From: Caenorhabditis remanei
Lineage: Eukaryota > Nematoda > Chromadorea > Rhabditida > Rhabditidae
Direction of reading: 5' to 3'
Length of the DNA stretch: 64,000 nucleotides
Assembly (NCBI RefSeq): GCF_010183535.1
Contig: NC_071331.1
Location: forward strand, 10,478,001 to 10,542,000
Of this stretch, positions 14,095 to 64,000 are shown piece by piece. A program made the position numbers and the translations under genes. Within the stretch, counting starts at the first letter, position 1, and each line of letters begins with the position of its first letter. The notes beneath the pieces are model-generated. The model was not told the DNA's origin, did no database searches, and worked only from the letters and a program-made list of their open reading frames with translations.

Positions 14095-15774
14095 AAATTC
14101 GATTTCGGAAAAGAGGTTCAAAACCAGCACATGCTTGAAGAGTGTAGATTGTTGTTAATGTTGAAAAGAATCAGAATTTCTAGTCAGAAACTACTCGCGC
14201 AAACTTTTTCAATCTTAAAAAGTTTAAACAAGTTCTGGGAATTTCAAATTTGCTGAAAAATAAAATAACACGCGAAATCGCATTCCCACAGGTTTTTTAT
14301 AATTTAATTTTATCTCAAAACTTCAATTCCGTCGATTCAAGTCGAATTTCGGGAGTATTTAAAATGGATGACGTCATGGAGGTGAGTTATGATGGTTTGT
14401 TTTTTGGAAATTACTAACTGTGTGAATTATGAGAATATCAGCTCTGATGGATTAATTTTTCGCAACTGTGCACATGATTCCGTGTTTTACAGATATTTGC
14501 TTTTAAATTGTTCTTTGTTTCTCGAAGTCGCTTAGAAGAAAATTAGTTTTTTTATGCACTGTTTGACGGCTGGGTGAATCAATGATTTATGAAAGAAACT
14601 CAAATAATTTAAATTTTTCTTTCCTAAATCATGCTTCCATCGTGCAAAAATCTGGAAAAAAGTGGAAAATTCAATACTGAATAAAAGCAAACGCACTCCA
14701 CTGTACAAGAGTTCCACGGAATGATCACGGAATTGAACAACGGACACGGTGTGTGGTCTTCTTTCTCAAATTTTCATGTTTAAGGGACCAGGAAGCGCCG
14801 AAAAATGTGTGATCTCTTTTCTTCTTAGCAGGGTTATTTTTGTTTCAGAGAATCGAAATGATGACAATCCAAGAGAAGAATTTTTTCCAGTTTCACTTCT
14901 AGCTAAGATTGGACTTCGGCATCTTTGAAACAATTGAAAAGAAGACAATCTGATGTTTTAGAAACTAGTAAAGTAAAGGGTATGTACTTTCGATTTGGGA
15001 TAGTATATTTTTCATCAGTATTTACTGAACTTACAGTGTAAAAATAGTTTTGACTCATTCACATATCTATTTGTGTCATTGCTTCAAATATCTATTAATT
15101 CGTATTACTTCTGACATGTATCCTCAAGATTCCAGTTTGAAGTCAAAGTCAGATACATTTTGTTTGTGATTTACGTCAATGGGAAAGGATGGTTGCGAAT
15201 TTAACAAGACATATTTTTATTTAACAATTTCCCAGAACGATGAATCAGATAATCAGAAGAACATGTTCTGGTGTTGAAACATATTTTAAGAATTGCAAGA
15301 TTTGAGAGAGTCACAGTCCGAACTCAACAATATGGCCTTGAGCGAACTGATAAGTGTTGTCAAGACTGTTTCCAGCGTAAAAATTCAGCTGATTTTCAAA
15401 AAAATTATAACTCGGACCATTGCAAAGAATGGACTGAAAAAATACAAAACCGGGTAAAATGTTTGCCATTTTGCAGAATGTGATTAATTTTTATATTGAA
15501 ATCAGCTCTCAATTGTGATTCCACGAATCTCATACTGAGATCTCACGAATAAGCTTTTTTTACTTTGTCAAGACGATCGGCGGAACTGCAAAACATGATC
15601 ATGTGTCTGAAAAAACATATCTCTGTAATAAATGCTGTTTCAATTATTTGTAAAACGAGATTGAGAAATATTGCTCAGATTTCAATGAGTACTATGCCTC
15701 TACATTTCAATTTTTCTTGTTTCCGTTACATTCAAAATTACAGGTGTATCAGCATTGTGATAATCTCAACCCTC
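14095..15774. other. Intergenic stretch, no clear gene
   Basis: AT-rich, without a recognisable gene or repeat. One short exon-like segment, ATG at about 14364, gives six codons that overlap a CRE word (TGACGTCA) and end at a strong donor (GAG|GTGAGT). A TTTCAG acceptor near 14849 would continue in frame to a TAG after 18 more codons. I do not call it a gene. Confidence 0.3.
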
Positions 15775-16150
15775 TGCTATGACAATCTTCGATCTATTTT
15801 AAGCACCAAAACTCTTACATCCATTAACAAGAACTCAAATCCAAGAGATTAACGGGAGATTTGTGATTCCATAAGCATGTTTTTCACAAGTGTTTCCCCC
15901 CACAGTGATGTTTTGTAATCTCGTTTTCTATTCTGCTAATTTGAATAACAATGGGATAATCTGTGACACAAATGATGATAAGTTCATAACAAGAACAGAT
16001 TAGCTATGGGAGATCAAAGAATTTCAAGATCTTGCACGTTTTCGGATCGACAGAACACGATGGAAAGATTACAAAAGATCGAAGAACTTCTGAAATTTTT
16101 CACATTTCAGAACAGAAATCCATTAAATTTGGTTCTGGAATGCAGTCTAC
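15775..16150 (-). repeat. Inverted copy of a block also at 24040-24480 and 26690-27130
   Basis: Read on the minus strand this matches both plus-strand copies over words such as TCGTGTTCTGTCGATTC, CACAAATCTCCCG and CTTGTTAATGGATGTAAGAG. The three copies are clearly related but diverged. No reading frame is kept between them. It carries a CTGTTTCA octamer at 15635-15642 just outside its edge. Confidence 0.75.
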
Positions 16151-16174
16151 ACTTTTGTAAAATATACTCCGTTT

Positions 16175-16470
16175 TACAGTCTCCCACACAGCCAAAAAAG
16201 ACTGCAAGCAAAAGTTCTCAGTGGAGCACAAAGGCCGCGCGCTACAGTAGTCAGAAATAATTTTTCAATTGAAAATTTTGATTTTTTCAAAATTACGAAC
16301 AATAAAGGAAATAAAAAGTGAAAATTGTCCGTAACAAAAAGCAAGAAAGGCAAAAGCAGTATTTCGGAAAAAAGAAAACTATTTTCGGAGCAAAAATAAA
16401 GGCGCTGATACATATCGAAGTTTTGGCCTGAAAAATCAGTTTTTTCATTATTCTTCGAAACTTATTCGGC
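16175..16470 (-). repeat. Dispersed repeat, inverted partner of 262-572
   Basis: Its reverse complement follows 262-572 with scattered differences over roughly 300 bp. It directly adjoins the inverted block 15775-16150, but that block has no counterpart next to 262-572, so the two are separate families or the junctions were rearranged. Confidence 0.7.
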
Positions 16471-16874
16471 GAAAAAATGACCCATCCATAATAAATGAAG
16501 ATCTATTTATTGCGGATTTTTTGAGCTATATTTGAGATGGAAACGTCAAAAAATAGAGAGCTGGATAAAGTTTGAAATCGAGAATTCGAAAAAAATTCTT
16601 CGCATTAACCTTTATTGAAGTGACCTTTCCGACCTTGAGCTTTAAGCTAAAAATAAAAATAAAACACTTTTAGACCTGCAAATGTTTCAAATTTTTTGTT
16701 TCTTGAGGGGAGATCAAAATTTTCTTTGCAGTTCTTTTTCGGACTTTGGCATACCGTTCGTTTCTTAATAAGGTTTACTAGACATTTCGAACGTCGAATA
16801 ACAGTACCTGGTATAAGGTGTACATATACCGAGAGTGAAACTGTGAATTTGTAAATTAATATTTTTGTTCCGAG
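16471..16874. other. Intergenic stretch, nothing recognised
   Basis: AT-rich sequence without a gene, terminal repeats or piRNA octamer that I can see. Confidence 0.4.
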
Positions 16875-17845
16875 ATACGTTTTCACTCGGTTTTTTGAAA
16901 ACATCTTCACCGTTCGATGTGATTATCTGAACATCCGCTTAAACCAAATATTCAATTTTTTGAAGTTGTTTTCATCGCACTTTTTGATCTTCTTGTATGG
17001 ATTATGGTTTTAGAATCCTGCCAGGATTTTGATTCTGGAATTTAACCGTTCTAAGATTATCCGTTTTTCAAAATAAGAAGACGTCGTTCAGAGCAACCTA
17101 CATTCAATTGAATTCCTGTACTATGCGAAAAATTCCTGTAAGACGCAATGCATTCTGAAAATGTTCCCATTGAAACAGACAAAGTTAAAGTCCTAAAAAC
17201 AATGAGAGCTCATAGAAAAACATCGGTACTTTGTGTTAATTTATTCAGTTTCTCATCCATTGAACTTCTGATTCTTCTCATTGGTTTAGATTAATCACAG
17301 CTTACCGCATTAGTCATTTCAATGTTTTGCCTTTTCTGAGTAATTCGATGATAAAGGTTTCTTGGAATAACATTTTGAAAGATTACTAAACCAAACATTT
17401 TCTTCTTCTTCGATAACCTCGAGCATATAGTCATCGTGAGTTTTGGTCTTTTGGCTATCGAACTAAGCAGCTAGCTTGTGTGATAGAAAAGCCATGCACG
17501 AAACAGTCCCCTATAACTCTCCTTCCTCTTAAAAATTCCAGTTATCCCATATTCGAGGAGATGTCAAACGTCAGTATCATTTGACGTAGGTAGAAATCTG
17601 GAGCGTGAAAATAAAATCAAATGTTCTGTTTTAAACAGACATTCCCGTTAGAAAAATAAACACAAAACAACATGTTTCACCGAATATGTTTTTAATTGCA
17701 TTAACCAGCAAGCATATTGTTTTCAAGATTGCTCTTTGTTTCACATGGTACACCTGAAACTGCAATGGTTATTGGTGGAAGAACGAATCATAAAACCAAA
17801 ACTTCTGTTATTCTTCGATCACCTCAAGCCTATAATTTTTGGTTG
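16875..17845 (+). repeat. Large direct duplication, copy 1
   Basis: This segment reappears at 18083-19165 in the same order, beginning GTTTTCACTCGG and ending near CCTATAATTTTTGG. Long stretches are almost identical, for example the run after CTCATCCATTGAACTTCTG. It contains an ACGTCA-N8-TGACGT pair at 17568-17587 and a minus-strand octamer at 17171-17178 that lacks a YRNT at the normal distance. No reading frame is conserved. Confidence 0.88.
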
Positions 17846-18082
17846 AAACTCACTATGTCGCCCATCGAAAAACCGTTTCTGAAATGAGGTTTATACTGAC
17901 AGTGAAACTGATGAAAAACCCAGGAATAAAAATAATTTTGAAAAATCTTGAACAAGAACCGTAATTTCAGATTACCCATTTTTTGTCAGATTCTTCATAC
18001 CACAGAAAATCTGTTTAGTGCAGAGCTCATGTTTGCAACAATATTATCTGTTCAGAAATTTCATTATTCATGCTCCGAGTTC

Positions 18083-19165
18083 CGTTTTCACTCGGTTTTT
18101 TTGAAAACTTCTCCGTTCGATGTCATTATCAGTACATCCGCTCAAACCAAATATTCAAAGTTGTTTTCATCGCACTTTTTGATCTTCTTGTATGGATTAT
18201 GGTTTTAGAATCCTGCCAGGATTTCGAGTTTAGAATAAGAATCTCTAAGATAAATATCCTTTTTCAAAATAGTAGACGTCGTTCAGAACAAACTACATTC
18301 ACCATCTTGTAATTCATTCCTGTAGTTCACGATGCACTCTGAAAATGTTTCCATTGAAACAGACAAAGTTGAAATCCTAAAAACAATGAGTGCTCATAGA
18401 AAACGCTCCAGTAATTTGTGTTAATTTATTCAGTTTCTCATCCATTGAACTTCTGATTCTTCTCATTGGTTTAGATTAATCACAGCTTACCACATTAGTC
18501 ATTTCAATGTTTTGCCTTTTCTGAGTAATTCGATGATAAAGGTTTCTTGGAATAACATTTTGAAAGATTACTAAACCAAACATTTTCTTCTTCTTCGATA
18601 ACCTCGAGCATATAGTCATCGTGAGTTTTGGTCTTTTGACTATCGAACTAAGCAGCTAGCTTGTGTGATAGAAAAGCCATGCACGAAACAGTCCCCTATA
18701 ACTCTCCTTCCTCTTAAAAATTCCAGTTATCTCATTTTCGAGGAGATGTCAAACGTCAGTGGCATTTGACGTAGGTAGAAATCTGGAGCGTGAAAATCAG
18801 AATCTCTTTATTGTGGTCAGAAGACATCATCGAGGATACAACATGGGTTGATGTGACGAAATGAACCAGAAGGTTGAATCAAACTAGATATATGAGTTGA
18901 GTACACTAAAAGGAAACTAGAGCAGTTTCAAATGTTTTGTTTTAAAAACAGACATTCCCGTTAGAAAAATAAACACAAAACAACATGTTGTATCGAATAT
19001 GATTTTAACAGCATTCACATATGTACAACAAGTGTAACGTTTTCGAGATCACCCTCTGTTTCACATCGTACACCTGAAACTGCAATGATTTGGTGGAAGA
19101 ACTTTCGAATCATAGAACCAACACTTCTGTTATTCTTCGATCATATCCAACCTATAATTTTTGGT
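18083..19165 (+). repeat. Large direct duplication, copy 2
   Basis: Partner of 16875-17845, offset by about 1.2 kb. It differs by an extra segment of about 135 bp at roughly 18796-18930 and by scattered changes. The ACGTCA-N8-TGACGT pair lies at 18753-18772 and the minus-strand octamer at 18355-18362. Confidence 0.88.
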
Positions 19166-19538
19166 AGGTTTATGTGAGAAATTGAAAAGTGAAAAAACGA
19201 AATTCATAGAATGAAATCAACCAGAACCTGCAAATGACATGAGATCTTTCATTTTTTGAACTGGAAGTTTGATCGAAGAAAACGTGAAGGAAGAATTTTC
19301 AGTTTCATGAAATACTTAACAAAATAAAAATAATTAATCACTTATTGGATTTGGCGCAAAGAATACAGTTTTTGAAATATATGCAAAAAGAGAATATTAG
19401 GTGGTTCTAATTGGTCTAGTGAATTGGTCTAACAAGAGAACATATTTTACTATAAAACTAAAATAACGAATAACGTCACGTATCCGGGCTCGGGATTTTG
19501 TTTTTCAAAATGAAAAATATGCCCTCTTTCTCCCCTTA

Positions 19539-19600
19539 GAAAGTGCACATGACTCGGTGTGCTCATGACAAAACACGTGCCCTTCTATAGTATAAAAGTC
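19539..19600 (+). promoter_or_regulatory. Promoter-like module, copy 1
   Basis: GAAAGTGCACATGACTCGG, then CACGTG at 19574-19579 and AGTATAAAAG with the TATA word at 19591-19598. The same order and spacing recur at 22153 and 24942. The TATA box is perfect and a transcription start would fall near 19620-19630. No protein frame follows, so the product, if any, is a non-coding RNA or a lost gene. Confidence 0.6.
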
Positions 19601-19949
19601 GTGGAGAAATTGACTTTGATCAACACTTTTTGCGCTCTTCTTTTTCAGTTGATTAAACAATAACGTAGCTCTGGATTTATTACCGTGACAAGCTTTTTAC
19701 TGAAAATGCTATCCAACTTTCACAGCTACTTGAAGAGCGATCGAAACAATCGTTTTTAAATAGATCTTTAAACATTTCAAAACAGTGCATTTTTCTGGAA
19801 CGTTGTTCGATGTTTGTTGAGTATTCATTGTTTTCTGGAGACAGGACACTATCCAAGATTCTATTTCAATAGTTCATCTGACTAGTGAGTTTCAAATAAA
19901 ATCCCTGTTTCTTTTAGCGCTGATTATCTGAAATGTTCCACCATCTTCA

Positions 19950-20070
19950 CCGGTCGGCCTTCAATTTCCAATGTATTTATTTTTTCCCATACCTGTTGAC
20001 TCAAAACCTTTTCCAAAGAGATTTCAAGACCACTGAAAATGTAGCCTAAATGTATCTTGGAGCATATTGA
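19950..20070 (+). repeat. Downstream block of the triplicated region, copy 1
   Basis: Shares ACCGGTC, a TGACTCAAAACCTTTTCC-like word and the AAAATGTAGCC run with 22790-22950 and 25935-26095. It lies about 350 bp after promoter-like module 1. Confidence 0.6.
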
Positions 20071-20509
20071 AGAGCCCCAATCATCTTGGTGTTCGAGAGT
20101 TCTTTGAAGTATGCAATCAGATAAATAGTTTTATTTCCATTTTGAAAAGGGGGAAACACGGATGGAAAGTAATCACGTAAGATTCAAAAATGCTTACAAA
20201 AAAGATTTATTATCAACTATGGCAATTTTAGAGTTTTGATGAAACTTCGAAACAGGAAACTAATATATTTTTAAACTTAAATTCTCGTATGCAAAAAAAA
20301 GTTATGACACAGCTTTTTGTATTGAAAAATTTGAAATAGATCTTCATATTTCACTTCAAGAAGGTTTTTAAACCATACCTCAAATTAAATGTCTTCAATG
20401 TTCTTCCAACCCTCACCAGTCTAAATAAACCATTCCACATTGTTAATGAAAACGGCAAAATAAAACTGTTTCACTTTATACATAATAGAGGAAATGAGCT
20501 GTTACGTAG

Positions 20510-20530
20510 TTGCTTTGTTTGGGTTTGCTT
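20510..20530 (+). ncRNA. Predicted 21U-RNA (piRNA)
   Basis: Octamer CTGTTTCA at 20466-20473; YRNT = TAGT places the first U 37 nt after it. It lies between duplicated blocks. Confidence 0.4.
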
Positions 20531-20599
20531 TTTGTAACCAATGATTTATAAATTTGTCAGGGAACTTGAATTCTCAATTGCTTGAAATCCCCATATCTT

Positions 20600-20800
20600 C
20601 TCAATTCTATTTCATTTTAAAAGATTTCTGTTATTTTTGTTTCCAAGAGGAACTCAAACGTCAGTAACCTTTGACGTAAGCCGGAATATGAAGCGTGAAA
20701 GTCAGAAGATTGCATCAGAAATACAATATATTCTGATGTAACGGATTCGTTGAGAAAGAAAAGAACCAAACTCTATCTATATGAACACTCGAATATTGAA
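20600..20800 (+). repeat. Diverged third copy of part of the 16.9/18.1-kb duplication
   Basis: It keeps the ACGTCA-N8-TGACGT pair at 20658-20677, the flanking GAAGCGTGAAA word and a degenerate form of the copy-2 insert (TCAGAAGA...CATCAGAA). The rest is too diverged to align by eye. Confidence 0.5.
20745..20765 (-). ncRNA. Predicted 21U-RNA (piRNA)
   Basis: Minus-strand octamer at 20805-20812; YRNT = TGGT, first U 40 nt downstream. Confidence 0.45.
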
Positions 20801-21074
20801 AATCTGAAACAGTTGAAAAAGTATGTATTTAAATCCGAAGTACTTGTCATTTTAATGTACATTGGAAGACAAGTTGAAGATTTTCGTTTGATACTGTCTT
20901 ACAATCGCCTATAGGCAATAAAAATTTCACCAATCTGTTTCTGGTGGTTTCAATACGAACGCTGCCAAAAATGGGAATAATAATTTAAGCGATGCTCCAT
21001 TTTTCTTTGAATGATCTGTTTTTCGAAACTGTTTCAAATCTTTTGTAAAAATATGCGCGAGTCTGGTGAATCAA

Positions 21075-21095
21075 TGTTGTTAACTGACACTTGTG
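21075..21095 (+). ncRNA. Predicted 21U-RNA (piRNA)
   Basis: Octamer at 21029-21036; YRNT = CAAT, first U exactly 39 nt downstream. One of the best-formed loci. Confidence 0.6.
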
Positions 21096-21315
21096 CTAGT
21101 TTCTCTTCGTTTCCCACATGTGCTTTAAAAATCGATTTTCTCGAATATGTCAACTCAAATTCAAAGTTCCACACAAAATAACGAAGTTTCCGACGGTCGA
21201 TTATCTTTACTACTCATTTACATACACATCGATGTTAATATTAAATCGTTAACATCACCAAGATATTTTCTGTTTCAAAACGTGAATCTGAACCTGGGAT
21301 GTTTGATTTTCCTGG

Positions 21316-21336
21316 TGCAAGAACTTTTGAATGATC
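21316..21336 (+). ncRNA. Predicted 21U-RNA (piRNA)
   Basis: Octamer at 21270-21277; YRNT = TGGT, first U 39 nt downstream. Only 241 bp from the previous octamer on the same strand. Confidence 0.6.
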
Positions 21337-21715
21337 ACTGAACCGAAAATTCTGTTATTCTTCGATCACCTTTTTCTTCGAAACATATAATTTTTTGGAA
21401 GGCTTATGTGAGAAATTGAAAAAAATGAAAGAGCAAAATTCACGGATGAAGCGAACCAGAACCTGCAAATGGCATGATGTCTTTCTTTTTTTGGACTGGA
21501 AGTTTGATCAAAGAATCTCTAAAAAAGCGAAATCTGATGTGAAACTATTGGGTTTTACGAAAAAATGAAACATCTAAACAATCATCGCATTGTATTATAA
21601 AATTTCTAAAACTGTAAATGACTTTTCTAATTAATTATCTCAAAAACATACAGTTTCTGGAATACGTGAAAATAGAGAATACTCGCTGGCTCTAATCTTT
21701 CGATTGAGTATTTTT

Positions 21716-22112
21716 CATACTTGTCAACGGGACGAAACGGGCCGACACGGGCCGACACGGGCCGACACGGGCCGCCGCGTAACTCGCTTCAAACTCAATA
21801 TTATGAGCTCAAAAATATACCAAATTGTAGATCTCGACGAGTTTTATGTCCGTGACCTACTACGGGCCGGATGGCGATTCGTTAATGTACCGCGGGCCGG
21901 GAAAAAGTGCCAAAAAACGCGAAAATGGCCAAAAAAGCCATTCTAGCCCGGCCCGCGGCATATTAACGAATAGACATCCGGCCCGTAGTAGGCCACGGAG
22001 ATAGAACTCGTCGAGATCTACATTTTGGTATATTTTTCAGCTCATAATATTCATTTTGACGCGAGTTACGAGCCGGCCCGTGTCGGCCCGTTTCGGCCCG
22101 TAGACAAGTATG
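21716..22112. mobile_element. Palindromic element, probably hAT-like non-autonomous
   Basis: Begins CATACTTGTC and ends GACAAGTATG, and is almost self-complementary along its length (arms about 190 bp). Arms carry a decamer run of ACGGGCCGAC. Flanks GTATTTTT (21708-21715) and GTATTCTT (22113-22120) look like an 8-bp target duplication with one change, which fits hAT. It has no transposase. It was inserted just upstream of promoter-like module 2. Confidence 0.7.
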
Positions 22113-22152
22113 GTATTCTTTAAAAGTAAGAACAAGCTATCCCTTCCCCTTA

Positions 22153-22214
22153 GAAAGTGCATATGACTCGGTGTGCTCATAACAAAACACGTGTACTTCA
22201 GCAGTATAAAAAGA
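22153..22214 (+). promoter_or_regulatory. Promoter-like module, copy 2
   Basis: GAAAGTGCATATGACTCGG, CACGTG at 22188-22193, and TATAAAAAG from 22205. It lies about 2.6 kb after copy 1. The sequence after the TATA box shows no coding frame and is not obviously alike between copies for the first few hundred bases. Confidence 0.6.
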
Positions 22215-22789
22215 GCGGAGGAGCACTTTTCTATTACATTTTATGAAAATTTTATCAAGTTTCAATTGCTATAAAGAATTTATCAATTAATATATTCGCC
22301 ATGATGACAAATTTCACGACTGAATTAAAAAAAACAATTTTCGCTGATAAAGATTGACCGATTAATGACAAAATAATTCCATATGATTTATAACGTTTCG
22401 AAACAGTAACATATTACAGCAAGATAAATCCACATTCACTTTTCTAGAAAATGTAGTATCTCTATTTGAGTGTGTTTATTGGTTCTTTCCGATGCAAAGC
22501 TGTTCACAACCGGGCCGCGGCCGTCCGTTTAAGTAGGTCACTATCAAAATCCGGGCCTTCTTTTGAAATATGAATTCTACGCCCCCAAAAAATTGCAGGG
22601 CCTCCAGACCGCCATATAATTTTAGACTTTCAAGTACCCTAAACAAAAACCCGTGGTTGAACATCCTGGTCCAGATGACTTTTTTTTCAAATGTATTTTT
22701 CAACATTACCTTTTCCCCTTTCCATTTTTTCTGATATTTGGACCACTCAAAAATTTGACATTACTTCTTTTCACTCCTATCGTATAATT
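22215..22789. other. Non-coding stretch after promoter-like module 2
   Basis: No gene seen. It contains a GC-rich patch near 22505-22535 (CCGGGCCGCGGCCG) that looks like a scrap of one of the GGGCC-rich elements. Confidence 0.35.
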
Positions 22790-22950
22790 TTCCCCAAAAA
22801 TTTTTCCGGTCAACCTGCAATTTCAGGTTTGTTTACTACTTTCCCACACCTTCTGATTAAAAAACCTTTACCAAAAGATTTTGAAATCACAAAAAAATGT
22901 AGCCGCGAAAATGTAGTTCGGAGCATTTTGCAGAAATGCACCTGACTTTT
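22790..22950 (+). repeat. Downstream block of the triplicated region, copy 2
   Basis: Related to 19950-20070 and 25935-26095 (TTTCAGGTTTGTTTACT, CCCACACCTTCTG, AAAATGTAGCCG). It sits about 580 bp after promoter-like module 2. Confidence 0.6.
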
Positions 22951-23104
22951 TTCAAGATATGAACAAAAACAAGGAAGTTCATGATTGTTGAGTGAAAAAA
23001 AGAACAGTGATGAAGAAGGAAACTCAGAAGACGGTTCAGAATAAACTATTCTTGAATTGGATGTTCTTTGGTGAGGATACGACCAGGAAATTTAGTGACT
23101 GCTA

Positions 23105-23434
23105 ACAAGGGAATTGACTTTCCGTACCCTTTCAGAATTTTCTATAAATTTGCACACTGATAGTTTCGAGTCAGCTCTAAACAATGGTAATAGTCAAAAA
23201 GTGCAAAACTCCCGAAAAGTTGGAATTTTTCGCTCCGAAAGTTTGCTCACTGTTCATCATAGAAAACACGAACGCCAATTCGAGAGGACTGTCCGGTTCT
23301 TAAAGACAAAAAATTCCAACTTTTCGGGAGTTTTGCACTTTTTGACTATTACCATTGTTTAGAGCAGACTCGAAACTATCAGTGTGCAAGTTTATAGAAA
23401 ATTCTGAACGGGTACGGAAAGTCAATTCCCTTGT
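23105..23434. mobile_element. Palindromic element (330 bp)
   Basis: ACAAGGGAATTGAC at the left is matched by GTCAATTCCCTTGT at the right, and the arms (about 130 bp) pair almost perfectly around a central part near 23245-23300. No coding capacity. No clear target duplication seen, so the superfamily is unknown. Confidence 0.75.
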
Positions 23435-23689
23435 AAGTGCTGAAAGATGATACCTAATTTTTGATACCTAATAAAACAATTGAACCATTGATGATACCAA
23501 AATTCGAATCGACTATATAACATTTCTGAAATTGTAACTTTTCATAAAACTCAGAAAACCTCCGTCGTCACTTCGACTTGTTGATCTTACGGTAGCGATG
23601 ACTCAAATTCAAATTTACTACCTGGAATTTCACAAAGCTGTATTTCATACCAATCCTCATATCTCAAATCTCTAATGACTTTGATACTG

Positions 23690-23900
23690 CCATCTAATAC
23701 GGCCAGATCAATTTCTTAGCAGAATTCTGAAATCATCAAAATCCAAACATGGAGATCCGAAAAAAGAAGTGCAGAGTAAACAGTTTAGTAAATTCGAAAA
23801 AGCTCTTCTAAGCGGATCGAATGTACTGGGAGATTTCGAATAGTGAAGCGGATTTCGAATTATAAAGAGTCCTAAATAAAACAGTGTCTGACTCATCTTT
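23690..23900 (+). repeat. Duplicated block, copy 1 (partner 26400-26590)
   Basis: Shares with 26400-26590 the run CATCA(A/T)AATCC, GAAGTGC(A/G)...GTAAACA, TCTTCTAAGCG/TCTTTTAAGCG and the following region. Diverged and non-coding. Confidence 0.55.
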
Positions 23901-24039
23901 AAATTGTAAACTGCAAAACCTTATTAAGAAACGGTATATATTTTACAAAAGTGTAGACAGAATTTCAACTTTTCGAACGCGAGATCTCTGATTGTGTCTC
24001 AATACCATAAACTTTTCATGGTTCTGAGGTTATCTATGT

Positions 24040-24480
24040 ATAACTTCCAGGACAGGCATGCTCCAAGAAGAATCCCATCTCAGAACCAAAATTGTTTGAT
24101 TTCTGCTCTGAAAATGACTTTTGTTTCCTACTTTCCATCGTGTTCTGTCGATTCCAAAACGTGCAAAACCTCGAAATTCTTCGATCTCCCATAGCTAATC
24201 TGCTCTTATCATGAACTTATCATCGTGTGGGTCATGGATTATCCCATTGTTATTCAAATTAACAGAATAGAAAACGAGATTACAAAATATCACTGAGGCG
24301 AGAAACACTTGTGGAAAACATGTTGATGAAGTCACAAATCTCCCGCTAATCTCGAAGATTGGAGATCTTGTTAATGGATGTAAGAGTTTCGATGACTGGT
24401 GTAGATTGAATACAGTATGAAAATGGACGACATAGGGGAAGATATGTCCATAATTCTCAATACACTTTCAATTTTCTGAA
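24040..24480 (+). repeat. Duplicated block, copy 2 (partners 26690-27130 and inverted 15775-16150)
   Basis: Long similarity with 26690-27130, from ATCCCATCTCAGAACC through CATAATTCTCAATACACTTTC. The same block lies inverted at 15.8-16.1 kb. A minus-strand octamer (24477-24484) marks its right end. Confidence 0.8.
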
Positions 24481-24558
24481 ACAGCGATAAATCGAAAAAA
24501 AGGCTGTATAACACTGTTTCAGCACTGTTTGAAACCGAAACAATTTTTTATTCATTAT

Positions 24559-24579
24559 TACCGAACTTTTTTTTTTTCA
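24559..24579 (+). ncRNA. Predicted 21U-RNA (piRNA)
   Basis: Octamer at 24514-24521; YRNT = TATT, first U 38 nt downstream. The predicted RNA runs into a T-rich tract, which lowers confidence. Confidence 0.4.
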
Positions 24580-53350: not shown

Positions 53351-53359
53351 CGTCAAATC

Positions 53360-53672: not shown

Positions 53673-56600
53673 GTGTAAAATAACTTATGCGTCTATTCTG
53701 GAAACATTGTATCAAATTTAAGTGGTGTTTACCATAATACCATGAAACAGTAATATCGTATTAGGTTAAGTGTTTCAAATTTTGCATTTTTGAAAATAAT
53801 GAAAGTTGAAGATAATTTAGGAGTCATTGATGGAGCACTAACTTCAAAACATGAAACAGAAACTAATCTGCTGAGCGAAACTCTCAGAGTACTGCTCAAG
53901 GCGATGGGCATTAGATCAATTTCAATGTCATCAGAAAAGTGGTCTAGGCGTACAGCCGGCACAAATTTTGAAACCCCGTTGCAAAGGGTTTCGGAAAAAA
54001 CTGTTTCGTGAACTCTTTTTGAAAAAGGCTTCTCTTGGTTTTTAATGGTTCCATGCACATTCGTCTCGAAATAGTTTTCTTGTAGGGAGGTTTTCGAAAA
54101 CCTATGTCAAAAAATTATGTTTCTTACTACCGATATTAGTAAAAGTTAATTTCGTGAATTGCTCTCCATACACTCTGTTCAAAAATAACCAGTATCATCA
54201 AGTTCCCAGAGTAATAAAACTGTATTGCGCCCCTCCATATCCATTTCTCTCCTCCATAATCCCTTATTCTTCACCCCTTCTCCGACCACCTAGTGAGCTC
54301 ATCAATCTCCGGAACAAAGAGAGGAAGAGAAGACACACCACACGCCACACATACTCACTCACACAGACATTGACAATTTTATTGCGTGTCTTGTCACCGA
54401 TAAATTCATCAATTAACACCATTTGGTGGAATGCCAACATGACATCAAAGGCTTTTGTGCCGCGCGAAAATGAGTCGACGGGTGGAAAAAGGAACAGAGG
54501 AAGTGAGGAAAATGTGTAATGTTTGAGAAGACTGTTTGAAAAAAGATTGGAGAAAGAGTTGCCAATTGGAATATCGAAGACGAATCATGAAAGGAACATT
54601 TCCAGAAAAAAAAAACAGTATTTTGAAGCAGTAGATTTCTGTTAAAGAGATCTAATAGAATTTACAAAATAATCACTCGGGAAGCAAAACTGGGACCTTT
54701 AAGAGGGTTGAGAAACTGTAATTAGATGTTGACCCTTTTCTATTAAAATGAGCCCGAAAACGATCATAATTGTTTTGCTCAAAGTTATCTACTGACTTCT
54801 TTGCAATTTGCTGACCTCGATTTTTCAGATGATGACTCGTTCTTAATAAATTTAATGTGCTTAAGAAACGTTTTCTAAACTCTGTGAAACATTAATTCGT
54901 TGTAAACTTCTACATGTATGTTTATTTCAAAATCTTATTTTCGAATTCCTATTTTCTGTTCATTTTGCAACTCAACATATCCGTTTTATCAGTTTTAAAT
55001 TGTATGTTTCGTCACTTCCATATATCTGATATGTTATTAAAAAGTTATTCGTTTGCGGTTATGCCACCTTGTGAAGCAGTATAGTACCAAAAGAGTCTAT
55101 TCGAGATTATTCAGCTTATTCCATCTGGAAGCCATCCTTTTTTGTTCCGTTTCTTCGCATCCCCAAAGCTCTTGCTGGTCGTTCTCTACGTTATGACACG
55201 ACCTCCGAACAACAAAATATATCAAACAATTTTTACAGTGAAAGTATGTTAATATTATGACACTAACCCGCTCATGTAGTGATAATGCTATCAAATCATT
55301 ATCATAATCTGGCATACTAGAACGTCAATGGTTTTCACTGATTTTTGTAGCAAGAATTATGTCAACATGTTCCCACAAGAAGGAGTCCAATGGATCAAAA
55401 ACTAATCACATAAACAATCATTGCCAAATTTGATTGTTACATGTCGGTAAAATAAGCCTAAGAGTTTCAGGTGTAGCGGATTAGGACTTGTAGTAGCGCA
55501 AATATCTAGGCAACCTGAAACTGCAAGGAACATTTTTAAAATTTTAAAATTAGAAGAGGGATAGCTCTGCAAACAGTGAAGTCTGTCCCCCTTGAAGTGT
55601 ACTTCTGGGTTCACACCTCCTAGAAGATGAGAACGAAAATTTCCAAACTTTCAGTTTATTTGCCACTGACTCGATTTTCTCTGCTTCTAACTTTAAGTTT
55701 TAAAATTTTTTTCGAGGTTTCAACCAGTGATTAAACACATGTATGAATAATTCATGACGTTAACGCGGATTTGTGAAACATATTGGCTAAAAATTATCAT
55801 AATCTGGGAAACCGGAACGTTTGGATTTTATTTTTCAGCATTTTTGCATAATCCCACTCTGTCAGTTCTACATTTTTGGAAGAAAGCACCAGTACGGTTT
55901 ATGAGATTTATTTAATAATCATCATGAAGCAGGAATATGCTAATATCCAATTGTGTTGTTAAGACGTTTATTAGAGACATGAAGTAAATGGGATTTGAAG
56001 AGCCATAGGATACTCTTCTTGGCAAAACTCATGCGGGAACGAATTTGTACGTTTCAACAATTCAAATCTAAATACAGTTTTTTTAAAGTTCAAGTTCTCT
56101 TTTAAAGTTCTTTTAAAGTTCTCAGTTTTGCTCCCAAAGTGATTATTTTCCCGATAAGTGCACTATTTTTCAATTTCAAAAAGTTATCAAGGAAAATGAA
56201 TAGTTTATGAATTTATTGGTACTTCTGCATTTCTCTGTTTCCAAAAATTAGAATAATCTGGAAAAGTAGAACGTTTAGATTTCATTTTTTTCATCGGTTT
56301 TGCATAATCGCACCTTGTCGCTTGGCGGTAGGAGAGAAATGATGCAGAAAAAAATTGAAAGCCAACGATTATTACGCTCCTGGAGGCATTCATAAAATTA
56401 TCATAATCTGGCAGACTGGGCTTTTAGTCTAGAAAAATCACCTGTTTTGTTGTTCTCACATTATCAGGTCTACGTGAGCATTTCTTCTGCAGGTTTGGAA
56501 TCAGGAGGGTCGAAAGTATCTAGGCTAGAAAATTCAGTCTCTGCTCTACCTGTAGCAAGTACTCCAACAGGGGAATACTGTACAAAAAAATGGAGAGCAG

Positions 56601-59535
56601 AATGATTTTGGTGGCACAGTTGAAAAAACCATTATTACTAGTACACTAACAAACGAAAGTTGACATTATGATAATACCAAACCGAAACTGGACAATTACA
56701 GTGGTCAAAAGGAGTAGATGAGCAGCAATCTTATTCACGTATGATAGCTCATACAACTGATCTGAAACTTTAAAAACCGGATTTTTTTGGAAGAGCACAA
56801 TTGAGAAAGTCAAAGAAAGATTCCGTTTCACCAGATCAAGAAATAGTTGTATTTTTTCCAAACGGGAATCAAAGCCTGATTCCCCCTTCTCCCCACTTCA
56901 TCATAATGTTTGTGCGAAACCCCTTCTGTGTCGAATCGAATCGACACAACTCAAAAATGTTTAATTTAGGTAATAAACCCATTTAGGATCCATAAAAGTG
57001 GTGTATGTGTGCGTGTATATGTGGCGTATCAGTTGCACATACACACATACTGCCCCAACGTCTCTCTTTTTATCACCCGATTTTATGGGCAGAGACGAAA
57101 CTCAAAGAGCCCCGACGACTGGTCGTAAATCGTGCATCAAATACCCCCATCTGATGATATGTGTTGTGTTGGAAAACTGACAGAAGACGGAAAATCAGTG
57201 TACCGTGTCTCTCGGTCTCTCTCGCTCGCCCAATTTTTTATGACTCTTGTCATAAGATAAAAAGGTTTTTGAATATATTTATTTGTTGCTATCAGAGAAG
57301 AAAAAGAGAAAAGGCGGCGGAATATTTGTGAGATGACAGGACATAAAATCGTTATATTACTCTATCTAAACATGTGTTTTTTTCTTGTTTTTCTAGAAGA
57401 AGCAGATGGTGAAATGAAATTTTATGAGTATGAGAATGGGCTACCTCAAAACGTTTATGACTTGCATTTTGACTTGATATTTGAAACGAGCATTCGGGTT
57501 TTAGTATGCTATAAAATTGGGAAGAGAGATAGAGGAGATTATTGTACAGGTGTCAAAATATTGGAATGGGGACAGGGGAAGGGAAGATTGAGAAGGGGTA
57601 ATGTAATCAGGTAGATGGAATAAAGCACCAATTCAGTATTTTTGATAGAAAATTTCACGAGAAATCGAAACAGTATTCATAAAATACATACATGCAACGG
57701 CCCGGCTAAAACACTTTGAGCTAAATTTTGAACGAAAATTTGATTTTTTTAAACATTTATTGACTATAATTTAGAATTCAATCAAAAGCTAGTAATTCAT
57801 CAAAAAATTGAATTTTTAATGTAAAATTTCTTAAAAATGTTCCTTTTTTGAAACCGGAAGTTTGTTTTTGAGTAATTTCCCAATGATGGAGCAGGATTGT
57901 TCTGCAAGATTCCCGAAACCAGATGAAAATAATCTGAAACAAAATTTTTTTGAAAACCTACAGTACTCCCTCTCCCCGAGCGGTCAGTGATAAATTCTAA
58001 GAGCACTTCAAATGCATTTTTTCCGGTTTCTTATCGTTTTCTTAGTTTCTCGATTTGATTTGGCTACACTTAAATGAGAAGGTAGTTACTCAAAAACAGT
58101 ACAGTGGGGAAAAAAATGAGAAAAATATCACCAATAATCAATCCTAAAATAGTCTTGACACGAACTGCTGAATTACCGAAAAATTTAAACCAATCTCATG
58201 GAAAGGATTGACATTGAGTTTCACCGAAATTGTTTTCATGGGAGTTTGAAACATTTTATTTTTTCATGTGAAAAAATGAGAGAAAACTCAAAACGGCTTG
58301 GAACAGTGTCGGATAACAGAACAATAGTAACAGAAAACTAGAACTTTCTTGGCATTAGGAAAATTAACACTCCCCCGAAAAATGGTTTTTATGAAACTTT
58401 AATTTTTCACATAACTACATAGATGATTCATCAACTTGACGAAATTCTGGAAACCGCGTTCTATTGATAGTGGATGGGGGCGTGAAGAACCCTACATAGG
58501 TAGATCACGGGTGATGGAACTCAGGGAGCATGCTAACCCGAATAAGTGATTGAACACTGTAGCCACATTATGAGAGATCTGAAACACTAATTCAAAGTGG
58601 CGATTTTTATAGCTGTAAGAGTAGAACTGTAACTGTTGGGCTAAACACGTCAGAAGTTTTATAAACTCAACGGAACAGTATATTTTTTTGAAATCTAATG
58701 TTCCAAGAATTCGATTTTAGAATTTGCATTTCCACTCAATTTGATGCAGCCTCCTAATTGATACTGCTTTAAAATGTTATGTTCCTTATCACTGCTAATC
58801 ACTCACCAATTGCAAATTCAATTGTCTACAGTACCCTTACGAAACCCATCCTGAATCGTTTCATCTCCTTTGCACGTCAAATCACATTGTCTTCTCGTTT
58901 GACAAACGTCTTCTCCTTTTTATTCTTCTGATCCTTTACATCAACACGACGACGACTACTGTCTTATATGTTTATGATGATTTTTGCAAGACGTGAATGA
59001 TTCGAAAAGTGTCAGTTTGTCTTTACCCATCACTCCATCTTGACCTGTCAAAACCATCCATCTAATGTTACCTCCCCCTTACCCCCTTATGTCGCGATGG
59101 CCCGCCGCGAAAGGCAACGGAGGAAGAAGAAGGAGAAGATTTGTTTGAGAAGAGATTCTCTCTATATATTTATATAATAAGTTGATGTGTAACGTTCTTC
59201 TTCACACCTACGTCTCCAAAGTCCTCACCTCATCTATCAAGTGACACATCATAAATTGCCTGTCATACGTTGGTTTCTCTCTTCTCTTCCCCCATATCTC
59301 TCAGATTGCCGCCTGTCAAACCTCCCACCCCGGGGGCCCCGCCCTCGTCATCATCCAACCGATTCACTTCGCCCCGCCTCCCCCCGTCAGTCTCTTTTCT
59401 TTTTGAACGTGCCGATAGGAGTGCCCCATTCCAACTCCGCCCTTCCCCACTCTCTCTTCTCTATTCACATTTAGTTTTGTTGCGCATCACTACTTCGTGT
59501 TGCTCATTTATTATTATTGTTACTATATAAAAAAC
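53673..59535. other. Intergenic stretch directly upstream of tlp-1
   Basis: No protein gene supported. Patches at about 54220-54500, 56860-57310 and 58840-59530 have more even composition and pyrimidine-rich runs typical of regulatory or 5' UTR sequence. The last one adjoins the tlp-1 start and probably contains its promoter. Confidence 0.4.
53686..53706 (-). ncRNA. Predicted 21U-RNA (piRNA)
   Basis: Minus-strand octamer at 53743-53750; YRNT = CAAT, first U 37 nt downstream. Confidence 0.4.
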
Positions 59536-61525
59536 ATGGTCTCCACACATTCTTCACAATATATTACGGATTTCACACCAACAACGGTAAGTTCATTTTT
59601 AATATTGTTCTGTTTTGATTTTATTTTAGTCTTGCTATTAGCTTTTTTGGTCAGTGAAGTCTTGCTATTAGCTTTTTTGGTCAGTGACCAGTGTTTTCTG
59701 AAATTTTCAAAAATTTTTGTCTGGAAATGTAAAACTTTGATTTTTAAAGTTTAATGTTCAAGTGAAGTTGTAGTTGAAAATGAGAAGTATTTATCTCAAT
59801 TTTTTCCGGTTTTCTGAAATTTTCATCAGTTTCAAATTATAGTTGAGCTTCACTAGACACTGCCAGTAATTTCTGAACTTAAAAAATTGAAATTTTGTTA
59901 AGATTCTGAATTTTTCACATTTGGTTGGTCTTAAAACTTCCGGTTTCGAAATGACCCCATTTTGAAATGCCCTGAACCTTTAAATTTTGAAATTGAGACG
60001 TTTTGAACCCCAGATATTTCGAATTTGAGTAATCGAAAAAGTTAGATTTTTGAAATTTTGAAAGGTTCCCGGGTTCGAAACGTCCCGGAACACACTATTT
60101 AAATTTCGTAGCTTTGAAACTTTTTATGTTTCATTAGTCTTTCATAACCAATGCTGAAACTTCGAAGAACAATGACCTCTTAATACTAGGTACTTAACAC
60201 CAAAAAACATGTTTTCATCAAAGTCGCCCATATAAATTTTATATCTTTCCAAGTTTCCAGGCTGAACCCGGCAAATCTCCACTGGCGCTGCTCGCCAAAA
60301 CATGCGAAACGATCGGTCTTCCCGAGAATTCTTCATCAAAAAAGAGTGGATCGCCGCAAGAGAAAAAAGATGAGAAGCCATCATCATCATCACATCGATT
60401 CGGTTCGCTGGATCATCACCAACAACAACAATCAAAAAAATCCGCATCGCCTCGATCGACTCCCCAATCAAAAGAGCCGACACTCACGTTCCCGGGTCTG
60501 CCGAAACCGCAATTTCCAATGGGAATGCCTGGAATGGGCTTCCCATTCTTCAATCCAATGATGTCTCCATATCAAATGCCCGGATGTTTTCCAGGAGCAT
60601 TCCCAATGGCTCACGGATTCATGGGTGCTCAACGGATGCCGTGTCCATTTGCAATGATGAGACAACCGTGTGCAAATCCAGGGTGTATGCAGTGTCCAAG
60701 CTCCTCGAATGCAGTGAAATCGGGACAAATGAACGCAGAGATGATGGCGCAGTTCGCAGCTCATCCATTGTTTTCAATGTATGCTCAAATGATGCCAAAT
60801 ATGACTGGGTGAGTGGTTTTTACCGTTTCGAAAGATTAATATAAAATCAAGAAGTAAATGTAAATCAGTCATCCCCAGATCTCGAGACTATGTCAAAACC
60901 GAATTTTGTAACTTTTCAACTAACTCCCATTTCTTTCCAGAGTCCCACCTGCCTCCTATCAAGCTCTTCTGGCTGCATCCGCCGCCGCGTCCTCTTCCGC
61001 TTCCAACATGCCAACTGATTATTCTAAACCATCAACCTCCACAGCCACCTCGGAGCCCAAGACAGTATCCCCCAAGTCACCAGCTACCTCGAAACCAAAA
61101 TCATCAACGGCAAAGTATCAATGCAATTGGGTGGATTCAGATGTGCCATGCGGAAAGTCGTTCGAGGATGAGAGCGAGTTGACCAATCATGTTAAGGTGA
61201 GATTTTTTAAGATACTGTTTCTCATAGTTTTCAAAAATTGAGCCTTTGGTCTCATCAACATTCTTGTTCATTTTCAATTTCCAAAATTTTCCAGAAAAGC
61301 CACGCCCCATCCCCATCATCATCCGCCTCATCGGAGCAGTCAACTTCCGGTGGAAAAGCCGCTCGCTCCGCCACCTCCACACCCCAACGATTCAACCCAT
61401 ACGGAAAAGCAATGGCCCCTCAAATGATGCTTCCACCCGGTATGAGCATGAATCCAATGGTTCTCCCATTTTCTCTTCAAGCAATGTACTCTAATCGGCT
61501 AATGCCTACTGTAGCTCATCAGTGA
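59536..61525 (+). CDS. NocA/Nlz-family zinc-finger transcription regulator (tlp-1 orthologue), four exons
   Basis: Exons 59536-59586, 60261-60808, 60941-61196, 61295-61525; phases agree and give 361 residues. Exon 2 opens with the family motif SPLALLAKTC (residues about 23-32). A Ser/Gln-rich stretch and a Met/Pro/Phe-rich region with cysteines (CPFAMMRQPCANPGCMQCP) follow. A single C2H2-type finger, C-x8-C-x12-H-x4-H (CNWVDSDVPCGKSF...HVKKSH), is split by the last intron, and RFNPY near the C-terminus resembles the family's Groucho-binding FKPY. In C. elegans tlp-1 acts in asymmetric T-cell division and male tail-tip shaping; NET-family proteins are mostly repressors. The large empty upstream region fits a developmentally regulated gene. 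A further upstream start cannot be excluded. Confidence 0.93.
59628..59687 (+). repeat. Perfect 30-bp tandem duplication in tlp-1 intron 1
   Basis: Two adjacent copies of a 30-bp unit starting AGTCTTGCTATTAGC, with no differences, so it is recent. Confidence 0.95.
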
Positions 61526-61891
61526 ATACCATAACCTCTTCTTTTGTATTTTATTTGTTGTTGTAGTCCCCTTAGTGTCCCCCTCTTTTGAATTCGTGGT
61601 AACTATATAAATAAGCACGGGTTCTCTCTCCAGTGTCCTCTTGTCTAGTGATTCGATTCCACACCATCACCTCCTGTTTTATTTTCGGTCCATCTATTTC
61701 CCTCTCTCAATTTTATTGTTCTCAATTTAATTGTACGAGTTCTTTCTCCTGTCTCTAATTTTCTAATTCCCCCCATTTCCATCTTTCCCATTTTTATACG
61801 CCTTTCGGTCATCTCGGTTGCTTTACGACACCCATAACAAAATATCGTTTTTTCCCCCCTTCGTTTTCACTGTGACAATCCGATTCTCTGT

Positions 61892-61897
61892 AATAAA
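61892..61897 (+). terminator. Candidate polyadenylation signal of tlp-1
   Basis: AATAAA 367 nt after the stop codon, following a T/C-rich 3' UTR. No nearer signal was noticed. Confidence 0.5.
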
Positions 61898-62302
61898 ACA
61901 CGTTGAATGGTTTTCTCTTTGTTTGCGTATGTTTTCTTGAGTGAAAAAGATGAATTTCGAAATTTAAGAAAAATGACAGAAAGATTGATGAACGGAGTGG
62001 AAGGGGGAGATGAAGAGACGCAGATGGATGAGGTCTAGTGGGACCAGAGGGGGGAGACAAAAAACATGAAGGAGCAATAATCAGACAATTTTCAGCATAG
62101 ATCTGTAACTTTGGTTTGAAAGTGAATCGGTTACCTACAAAAAAATCTACTTTTGATGTTTCGTACGTTGCAAATGGAATCGAAGCGATTTCTTCTTATG
62201 GTAACTAACGAAAATTCTATGATCTCTCACAATTTATTCAAGTTTTTACAAGAATTACTGTTTCAGATTGTGAGTTTAACTTTTCCAAGTTTTTACCTTC
62301 AA

Positions 62303-62323
62303 TACTGTTCCGAATAATTTACT
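62303..62323 (+). ncRNA. Predicted 21U-RNA (piRNA)
   Basis: Octamer at 62258-62265; YRNT = CAAT, first U 38 nt downstream. Confidence 0.55.
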
Positions 62324-62599
62324 ATTTCTCGATCATTACAAGACAATGATGAATTTACTACCGTGTTCAACAATATTTCAGAAAAAACTAGGACATCGGA
62401 CTGATTTCTTACAGTAACCCGCCCAGTGGAAACCCTCAGAATTAGTACGTCTTTCAGAGAATGTTATGTTTCACATTAACCAGATAAATTTATTTTTCGA
62501 GGAGTACTCCGATGTAATCACAAAACATTCTCACTTCTATGATCATAGCGCCTCTGTTTCAAGATGGAGATATTTGGAATTTGAAAATAAAACATACGT

Positions 62600-62620
62600 T
62601 AAAAGAACATTTACTATACA
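62600..62620 (+). ncRNA. Predicted 21U-RNA (piRNA)
   Basis: Octamer at 62554-62561; YRNT = CGTT, first U 39 nt downstream. It ends 30 bp before a hAT-like insertion. Confidence 0.5.
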
Positions 62621-62649
62621 CCAGTTTGATATCATGAAATGGTCCCAGG

Positions 62650-63330
62650 CAGTGTGTGTTTTTCGAAATTTCTTATTCGAAAATATGTATTTTCGAAAAA
62701 AAATTCGAATGATATTCGAATAATTTTTCGAATATTCGTTCGAACAGTTGTTCGAAATTTTAATCGAACAATTATTCGAACGAATTTTCGAACGAATATT
62801 CGAATGACTTTTCGAATATTCGTTCGAATATTCGTTTGAACATTTTTTTCGTTGAAGAGCTGGAAGATTTTGGATCCGAAGAACTTTAAAGATAAATATG
62901 AAATTTGAAATGATTTTCGTCCGTTTTTTTTTTTCAATTTATACTTATATTTTTGATTTAAAACTTTGCTCAACTTTAAAAAATGAAGATATGTGTCAGA
63001 ACTATTTCGAATGTTTTGAACAGTTCAGATGGAAATTTATCCACAAAACTAGCAATTCTTACGAAAATTTTCCGTCTCCCGACGGAACAATACTTTTTGA
63101 AAAACAGTAAAAATTTTTAAATTTTATTAGAAACGATATTCGAAAATTGTTCGAATAAAATTGCCTTCGAATACTGTTCGAACAATTATTCGAATAGTTC
63201 GAATAATTATTCGAACATATTCGAATAAGTATTCGAACAAAATATTCGAACAGTATTCGAAAAATGTTAGAATAATTATTCGAATAAATTTTCGAACAAT
63301 TATTCGAACGTTATCGAAAAACACACACTG
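62650..63330. mobile_element. hAT-like non-autonomous element with TTCGAA arrays
   Basis: Ends CAGTGTGTGTTTTTCGA, repeated exactly in reverse at the other end, with an 8-bp target duplication GTCCCAGG at 62642-62649 and 63331-63338. Both subterminal regions consist of ATTCGAA words every 10-12 bp; the centre (about 62860-63110) is ordinary AT-rich DNA. No transposase. Open frames rich in I and R are only the translated repeat. Confidence 0.9.
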
Positions 63331-63338
63331 GTCCCAGG

Positions 63339-64000
63339 TATGGAAATAAAGCCTTACTACAAATTTTTGTTTCAGACTGTTTATAAGTTAAGGAACACGA
63401 TTTTTTTATAGTTCAGCCTCTTCTATAATTTCTAGCAATTTCCGTTTCATCACGTTTTTAAAGGCATAAGTTGAAACGTGTCACTAATGCCAATCGGACT
63501 ATTTTTTTGGCCAAATTTCAATCAAATTTGCCTATGAAGAAATATCATTGAATTTCTCGAAACAACCATGCATTAAAACCAAAATCTGAAACTGAAATAA
63601 TCACGATAACTTAGACTTGACCATGTTTTCCCACTGTTTCACCAAAACCATATTTAAACCGATTTTTTCCTAATAGTACTGCCTCTTCATTCAATATGTT
63701 TTGTTTTATGTTTCCGGTCCAGTATCTGACAATATTTTGCATATATAAGATGTGTATCAGAACTAGCTCCTCATAACTCCCATTTATCTTCCTCACAAAA
63801 CCGTAATGTTTGAACTTGACCCCCACTCAACTCCATTTCTCCCGGATAAAAAATGTTCTCACCCACTCTCTCTCCAGAGGAATCATGAGAGAAGCAACAA
63901 TATATTTTTCCAGCTACTCGTTTTCCAAAATGCAACTGTCATTCCGAAACTCTCATAAATCACAGCTCAATGTTGCCCACTTCAGTGAGAAGACTTCTTC
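63339..64000. other. Intergenic stretch to the window end
   Basis: No gene seen. One well-formed plus-strand piRNA locus. Confidence 0.4.
63680..63700 (+). ncRNA. Predicted 21U-RNA (piRNA)
   Basis: Octamer at 63634-63641; YRNT = TACT, first U 39 nt downstream. Confidence 0.55.

Follow-up and report, generated by a model that had tools for sequence, protein, structure and literature searches.

The window analysed here is a 64,000-nucleotide stretch of the Caenorhabditis remanei genome (presumably strain PX506; C4:10,478,001-10,542,000, C4 being taken as chromosome IV), from an assembly totalling 130,466,896 bases in 186 contigs of which C1 to C6 measure 17.2, 19.9, 17.9, 25.8, 22.5 and 21.5 Mb. 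It carries near its left end a BEL/Pao retroelement whose two ends carry tandem arrays of a 182-bp unit (2187..14099, plus strand; almost no promoter-like sites), and then, from 15635 to 63700 and on both strands, a field of predicted promoters of type I 21U-RNA (PIWI-interacting RNA, piRNA) genes. This field contains 38 exact copies of the octamer CTGTTTCA, and 84 sites beyond 14.3 kb exceed a log-likelihood ratio (LLR) of 2 under the promoter model described below. From its sequence, the region at ~15-64 kb is very probably a slice of a type I 21U-RNA supercluster on C. remanei chromosome IV; the sequence architecture, the enrichment, the fixed geometry and the concentration on one chromosome are direct observations.

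Across the whole window we count 39 exact CTGTTTCA octamers (22 plus, 17 minus), where 100 dinucleotide shuffles of the same DNA give a mean of 4.21 and at most 10. All but one (22 plus, 16 minus) fall within 15.6-63.7 kb; the remaining octamer, at 7195-7202 on the minus strand, is embedded in a reading frame of the BEL/Pao element. A first-pass annotation of this DNA had reported 37 octamers (21 plus, 16 minus), zero in the first 15.6 kb and a chance expectation of 2-3 per window: the excess it described stands, although its count fell short, the supposedly empty segment holds one copy and its expectation was slightly low. Genome-wide the octamer occurs 19,000 times in 130.47 Mb (6,781 times for the reversed word), a mean that predicts 7.2 octamers in the 49.7 kb beyond 14.3 kb, against the 38 observed (Poisson p 8e-16). 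An upstream Ruby core, as CTGTTTCA or a close variant, is one of the features by which type I 21U-RNA genes are recognised, and it is present in the window; several one-base variants are enriched as well.

A second such feature is clustering at megabase scale on chromosome IV, which is seen here insofar as C4 is that chromosome. In a coarse survey of C4 (10-kb samples every ~1-1.25 Mb), samples at 0.5 and 1.75 Mb hold 0 and 2 octamers, the ten from 3.0 to 13.0 Mb hold 7, 6, 7, 5, 4, 4, 12, 1, 5 and 7 (at least 4 in nine of the ten), and those from 14.25 to 23.0 Mb hold 0, 1, 1, 0, 3, 7, 1 and 0 (the first four spanning 14.25-18.0 Mb), density having dropped once 14 Mb is reached. The 10-kb stretches either side of the window hold 8 (left) and 5. 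Five 10-kb stretches on the five other chromosomes, picked before counting, contain 1, 1, 0, 2 and 0 octamers; the equal density outside clusters that the first-pass annotation had named as grounds for abandoning its proposal is therefore not what these samples show.

The position of the bases downstream of the octamer carries the argument further. Offsets are counted from zero at the first base of the octamer, such that offsets 45-47 lie 38-40 nt past its last base; at these offsets 26 of the 38 octamers beyond 14.3 kb place the T of a YRNT tetramer (pyrimidine, purine, any base, T), for which later offsets give a background of 0.267 (binomial p 9.8e-8). The earlier figure was 25 of 37 at about three times chance, of which the enrichment is upheld and the factor comes down to ~2.5. 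When three-base stretches starting at offsets 12-103 are compared, the one beginning at 45 comes first in the window (26 of 39 octamers) and again for 70 octamers from 11 other rich C4 stretches (51 of 70, background 0.222, p 2.7e-19). The remaining samples supply 20 octamers, 8 of them with a YRNT T at 45-47: five of seven in the stretch at C4 20.5 Mb (L026), two of three in that at 19.25 Mb (L025) and, outside these two and the rich C4 loci, just one of ten. A T at a fixed distance from the core, again characteristic of type I 21U-RNA genes, is thus seen in the window and again among the other rich loci.

This offset peak was measured before it was compared with the geometry published for C. 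elegans. In that species, 44 nt upstream of the 21U is the commonest position for the core G, and spacers range from 35 to 42 nt, with 21U abundance highest at 39 (PMC3597512). Here a T at offset 46 reproduces the 44-nt distance exactly, and offsets 45-47 correspond to 37-39 intervening nucleotides. Between core and T lies a second, A/T-rich box at offsets ~14-20, sometimes reading GTGATA or CATAT, in which offset 19 almost never holds C or G (it is A or T in 92% of the octamers of the window and in 94% of the 70 from elsewhere); this box is not imposed by the selection of octamers. The initiator block of the promoter model has C/T at -3 (0.90), A/G at -2 (0.94) and T (0.95), in keeping with the pyrimidine-purine (YR) initiator of type I genes; this block was seeded from YRNT, and the independent test is the offset peak.

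If most of the octamers were splice acceptors in TTTCAG context, or parts of coding sequence in an intron-rich region, without promoter function, they should carry the marks of splicing or translation, and some do: 15 of the 38 are followed by G and hence contain TTTCAG, and the octamers at 17171..17178 and at its copy 18355-18362 (both minus strand) sit in paired segments 89% identical (repeat family D10) that read by eye as in-frame protein, such that both are probably coding, within an exon of a duplicated protein gene. The other 23 lack the following G, however, and in the window the initiator fraction is alike in the two sets (10 of 15 with G next, 16 of 23 without). In the other rich loci a smaller share of the G-next octamers has the initiator (8 of 14, compared with 43 of 56 for the rest), so a few G-next octamers may be splice sites. 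Splicing predicts neither a T fixed at offset 45-47 nor concentration on one chromosome, and we consider it very unlikely indeed as a general explanation.

Type I promoters, by comparison, should be separable from background when the whole motif is scored with a position matrix, as the first-pass annotation had proposed. We used a mixture model with octamers within one mismatch as candidates and with terms for core variant, flanks, spacing and initiator. Training was on 11 other C4 stretches (412 candidates; nine of the ten samples at 3.0-13.0 Mb plus the two window flanks). The training loci and six of the 11 controls were sorted after octamer counts were known; the remaining controls, five stretches from as many chromosomes (C1, C2, C3, C5 and C6), had been picked before counting. 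Samples L009, L010, L018, L025 and L026 belonged to neither set, and L001-L008 (3,008 bases each, around octamers) are excluded from all counts. The last 49.7 kb of the window contain 84 sites above LLR 2, divided equally between the strands (42 plus, 42 minus) and with a median gap of 348 bp; the 110 kb of control sequence yield 6, and of 15 candidates in the first 14.3 kb just 1 passes. The mixture itself estimates ~114 true sites among 197 candidates in the field and practically none among 214 control candidates. Retraining on the full set of ten C4 samples at 3.0-13.0 Mb (L011-L020, including the poor L018), without controls or flanks, gave a model that was used to score L009-L035. It returns 86 field sites against 3 in the five stretches (50 kb) that had been picked on the other chromosomes ahead of any count, with 10-27 sites per 10 kb in nine of the ten training samples and 2 in the tenth (11.0 Mb). 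Both versions support a cluster, and the proposal that the window is part of one is borne out at the sequence level by density, geometry and concentration on chromosome IV. A free expectation-maximisation version of the promoter model was discarded, having drifted into pyrimidine-rich low complexity.

Exact octamers make up the smaller part of the scored field: 30 of the 38 exceed LLR 2, and the other 54 sites (16777..63594) are promoter-like with one octamer mismatch, mainly ATGTTTCA, CGGTTTCA, CTGTTTCG, CAGTTTCA and CTGTTTCT, each of which shows an initiator excess at 45-47 when counted alone. Because 54 of the 84 sites are variants, a list of exact octamers captures about one third of the field. 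The 5′ C of the core is kept at 68 of the 84 window sites, in a candidate set that itself favours C; in C. elegans a 5′ C in the core goes with male-germline expression (PMC3597512).

A strict pattern, consisting of the octamer, a TGATAA box and YRNT at 45-47, occurs at 44 places in the genome, 43 of them on C4 and one on C6, although C4 makes up 19.8% of the genome; its reversed control has 0 matches genome-wide. The C4 matches span 0.88-11.6 Mb, and three of the 44 lie in the window. Since several of the matches elsewhere are near-identical, and the window has local duplications at 16.9-19.1, 24.1-27.1 and 53.1-53.7 kb, we considered whether the octamers might be borne by a dispersed repeat family, the density then reflecting repeat copies rather than independent promoters. 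By coordinates, 4 of the 38 exact octamers (17171, 18355, 19056 and 24477) fall in copies of the repeat families listed (20 of the 21 found, copies of at least 40 nt), and the flanks of 77 good-start octamers, compared by eye, vary greatly beyond core, second box and initiator, except within a few local groups. Carriage by a repeat family is accordingly an extremely unlikely source of the field.

Several observations weigh against a supercluster of type I promoters. Twelve of the 38 exact octamers have no YRNT T at 45-47 (15635, 17171(-), 18355(-), 19056, 20466, 24477(-), 25730, 25855, 35389(-), 37590(-), 37929 and 53852(-), a set that includes all nine earlier named as lacking a good start), and two of these are probably coding. 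Initiator excess is absent for the variants CTGTTTCC (3 of 17), CTTTTTCA (10 of 36), TTGTTTCA (11 of 35) and CTGTTTGA (4 of 20). The sample at 11.0 Mb, within the domain, is poor (1 octamer, 2 model sites), and the near-identity of some strict-pattern matches makes the number of independent ones smaller than 44. Finally, an A/T signature downstream of 21U sequences has been reported for C. elegans and C. briggsae, and in the window the A/T content of 5-base bins after the T stays at 0.58-0.71 (84 sites); at training sites (187 of 188) it is 0.62-0.68. Beyond this there is only a small rise in G/C at positions +5 to +9. Little or nothing is seen of the downstream A/T signal that is associated with pausing, which counts mildly against termination signals identical to those of C. 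elegans.

This last deficit, together with the varying quality of individual units, would also suit a decayed or silent piRNA cluster that has kept its architecture and is little expressed. The window (26 of 38) nevertheless differs little from the other rich C4 loci (51 of 70) in how sharply initiator and spacing are defined, a similarity that points to selection still acting or to recent turnover. A review, moreover, reports that many 21U-RNAs are expressed in C. remanei, 2-3 times more than in C. elegans (PMC6468775). We judge decay to be very unlikely.

If the window is an active slice of a type I supercluster, as we favour, each gene would be a unit of ~65 bp on either strand, comprising in order the Ruby core (CTGTTTCA or a close variant), the A/T-rich second box 14-20 nt from the core start and a pyrimidine-purine initiator; the T after the initiator, 45-48 nt from the core start, would become the 5′ base of the mature 21U-RNA. 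If the C. elegans mechanism applies (PMC6436959, PMC9683057, PMC11262695), the USTC complex (PRDE-1, SNPC-4, TOFU-4 and TOFU-5) would bind the core and position RNA polymerase II, which would start 2 nt upstream of the T, at the YR; the capped precursor of ~28 nt would then be shortened to the mature, methylated 21-nt RNA that PRG-1 binds. All of this, from transcription through processing to PRG-1 loading, is projected onto the window from the C. elegans model, as is the chromatin state, which for type I loci is an H3K27me3 domain. The neighbouring BEL/Pao element shows no sign of being targeted by the 84 predicted 21U sequences: with a match defined as at most 5 mismatches at positions 2-21 and at most one in the seed, 4 of the 84 matched the transcript of the plus strand, for which 20 rounds of shuffling gave a mean of 2.75 (sd 1.87); on the opposite strand the count, taken without shuffles, was 5 of the 84.

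Type I piRNA organisation is already known in this worm group, of which the window is a real and clear example. It has in common with the C. elegans type I clusters (PMC3597512, PMC6436959, PMC11262695) the core octamer, the YR initiator, the use of both strands, the location on chromosome IV and the arrangement as clusters of clusters; it departs from them in its weak downstream A/T signal and apparently in extent, as C. elegans has two blocks of ~3 Mb whereas nine of the ten C. remanei 10-kb samples across 3.0-13.0 Mb are rich. The sampled profile suggests one broad domain rather than the two C. elegans blocks. The Ruby core and YR initiator are likewise shared with C. briggsae (PMC9683057). 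On chromosome IV of that species, one large block (0.02-7.1 Mb) covers the regions syntenic with the two C. elegans clusters and resembles the broad C. remanei domain, and another, at 13-15 Mb, has A/T-rich sequence flanking the core. A further C. briggsae cluster lies on chromosome I; a C. remanei counterpart may exist, C1 having been sampled at one 10-kb stretch (1 octamer). In the majority of the Caenorhabditis species examined in PMC6436959, piRNA regions map to C. elegans chromosome IV; C. remanei is not named in the main text of that article or of PMC9683057. The density in the window and the concentration on chromosome IV do not fit small nuclear RNA genes, whose promoters carry the SNAPc motif, and an Rfam search of the window gave no family at its gathering score. 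Dispersed loci of the P type (Pristionchus-like), which are spread over autosomes and lie in introns of active genes marked by H3K36me3, were rejected as a description, the sites being concentrated on C4.

Less ordinary than the type I organisation itself are the breadth of the domain and a separate array near 20.5 Mb. Within C4:20,500,001-20,510,000 (L026), seven octamers lie at ~1.7-8 kb in locally repeated DNA; three share the near-identical extended context TTTTCACTGTTTCATCGAAATTT and a fourth has it with three mismatches, and the 18-base core of this context occurs at 4 exact places in the genome, all within 20.506-20.511 Mb. As a tentative picture, in which we place somewhat less than even confidence, the type I genes of C. 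remanei would occupy a single domain of ~10-12 Mb, from the left part of chromosome IV into its middle, and the small array at ~20.5 Mb would stand apart with a distinct extended AT-flanked promoter (TTTTCACTGTTTCATCGAAATTT), perhaps paralleling the second C. briggsae cluster; the array may or may not correspond to the 13-15 Mb block. If true, a fused domain with a right-hand AT-flanked satellite would be a shared state of the briggsae-remanei lineage. Both the extent of the domain and the AT-flanked array are relevant to the origin, splitting and fusion of piRNA clusters. From sequence alone, piRNA promoters with C. elegans-type geometry appear to occupy much of chromosome IV in this outcrossing relative of C. 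elegans, and a literature search judged on titles and the starts of abstracts found no published chromosome-scale C. remanei piRNA map. A separate observation concerns L017 (C4:10,250,001-10,260,000), where four minus-strand units at 5.0-7.6 kb are alike by eye after the core (GAATAGTCGGAAATTTACCACAAAC and relatives), as if one piRNA gene had been copied locally and had then diverged.

The scored list of predicted 21U start sites can now be compared with small-RNA reads. Units with exact octamers, each running from the octamer through the end of the predicted 21U, are given here by the offset of the T from the octamer start, with strand and LLR. Predicted units with T at 45 are 24514..24579 (plus, 4.7), 31851..31916 (minus, 6.0), 34197..34262 (minus, 6.5), 37532..37597 (minus, 3.3, with AGTT instead of YRNT), 39930..39995 (plus, 3.2), 43235..43300 (minus, 6.5), 52049..52114 (plus, 3.8) and 62258..62323 (plus, 6.0). 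Those with T at 46 are 21029..21095 (plus, 4.2), 21270..21336 (plus, 5.2), 36271..36337 (plus, 7.5, the top score listed in the window), 37929..37995 (plus, 6.1, with AGAT instead of YRNT), 38374..38440 (plus, 3.0), 40475..40541 (minus, 5.8), 48430..48496 (minus, 2.6), 49951..50017 (plus, 4.9), 50181..50247 (plus, 4.5), 53191..53257 (plus, 2.8), 62554..62620 (plus, 4.3) and 63634..63700 (plus, 4.3); the units at 40475, 49951 and 50181 have a GTGATAA second box, and the last two resemble one another by eye. T at 47 is predicted for 20745..20812 (minus, 4.2), 28156..28223 (plus, 2.0 after rounding, counted among the 30 above 2), 33335..33402 (minus, 6.8), 38712..38779 (minus, 2.4), 43963..44030 (plus, 4.0), 48910..48977 (minus, 3.5) and 53683..53750 (minus, 4.9). 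Two predicted units without YRNT at 45-47 have their T later, 20466..20534 at 48 (plus, 3.3) and 25855..25925 at 50 (plus, 3.3, weak spacing). The exonic candidate at 17171(-), also without YRNT at 45-47, is one of the 30 exact octamers above LLR 2 (2.3) and is probably not a promoter.

The protein-coding part of the BEL/Pao element is recognised from matches, in pieces across 7.0-12.4 kb, to Peptidase_A17, reverse transcriptase, integrase, DUF1759 and DUF5641. Its ~182-bp unit forms directly oriented arrays at 2187-4718 (~13.9 copies) and 12957-14099 (~6.3 copies); comparison of 1-5.8 kb with 12.3-15.7 kb gave no other long direct repeat, just a 34-nt match. We infer that insertion of this element explains most of the near absence of promoters in the first 14 kb. 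The octamer-poor segment is not the border of the cluster, because the 10 kb to the left of the window hold the 8 octamers given above. Elsewhere in the genome, the same ~182-bp unit occurs in arrays of opposite orientation a few kb apart (C3 ~3.395-3.400 Mb, C6 ~15.174-15.178 Mb), which look like a different kind of element.

Two further genes lie among the predicted promoters. At ~59.5-61.5 kb, exons read by eye encode a C2H2-type protein with an SPLALLAKTC motif, one exon of which (204 aa) has 13 relatives, including C. brenneri at 67% and C. nigoni at 72% identity; the identification of this gene as tlp-1 in the first-pass annotation fits these features. The SPLALLA motif is a mark of the Noc/Elbow/TLP-1 family, and tlp-1 lies on C. 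elegans chromosome IV; together with the lengths and order of the contigs, this gene is the basis for equating C4 with chromosome IV. On the minus strand at 34.0-35.0 kb, two reading frames match the nucleoside transporter family PF01733, one above and one below the curated cut-off, within a gene that probably extends over 33.2-36.6 kb (span judged by eye) and has five exact octamers inside it. The predicted unit at 34197..34262 lies in a short putative intron of this gene, read by eye from GTAAGT to TTTCCAG.

The window also contains repeats of several kinds. Duplicated segments spaced ~1.2 and 2.6 kb apart, partly protein-like by eye on the minus strand, occupy 16.9-27.1 kb; one pair among them, of 300 nt, is 99% identical and another, of 204 nt, 88%. 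At 62.69-62.84 and 63.18-63.31 kb, a 12-bp unit of TTCGAA type is repeated in two imperfect arrays, and GC-rich GGCCCGGCC repeats at 46.2 and 46.9 kb comprise two 58-nt copies that are 76% identical.

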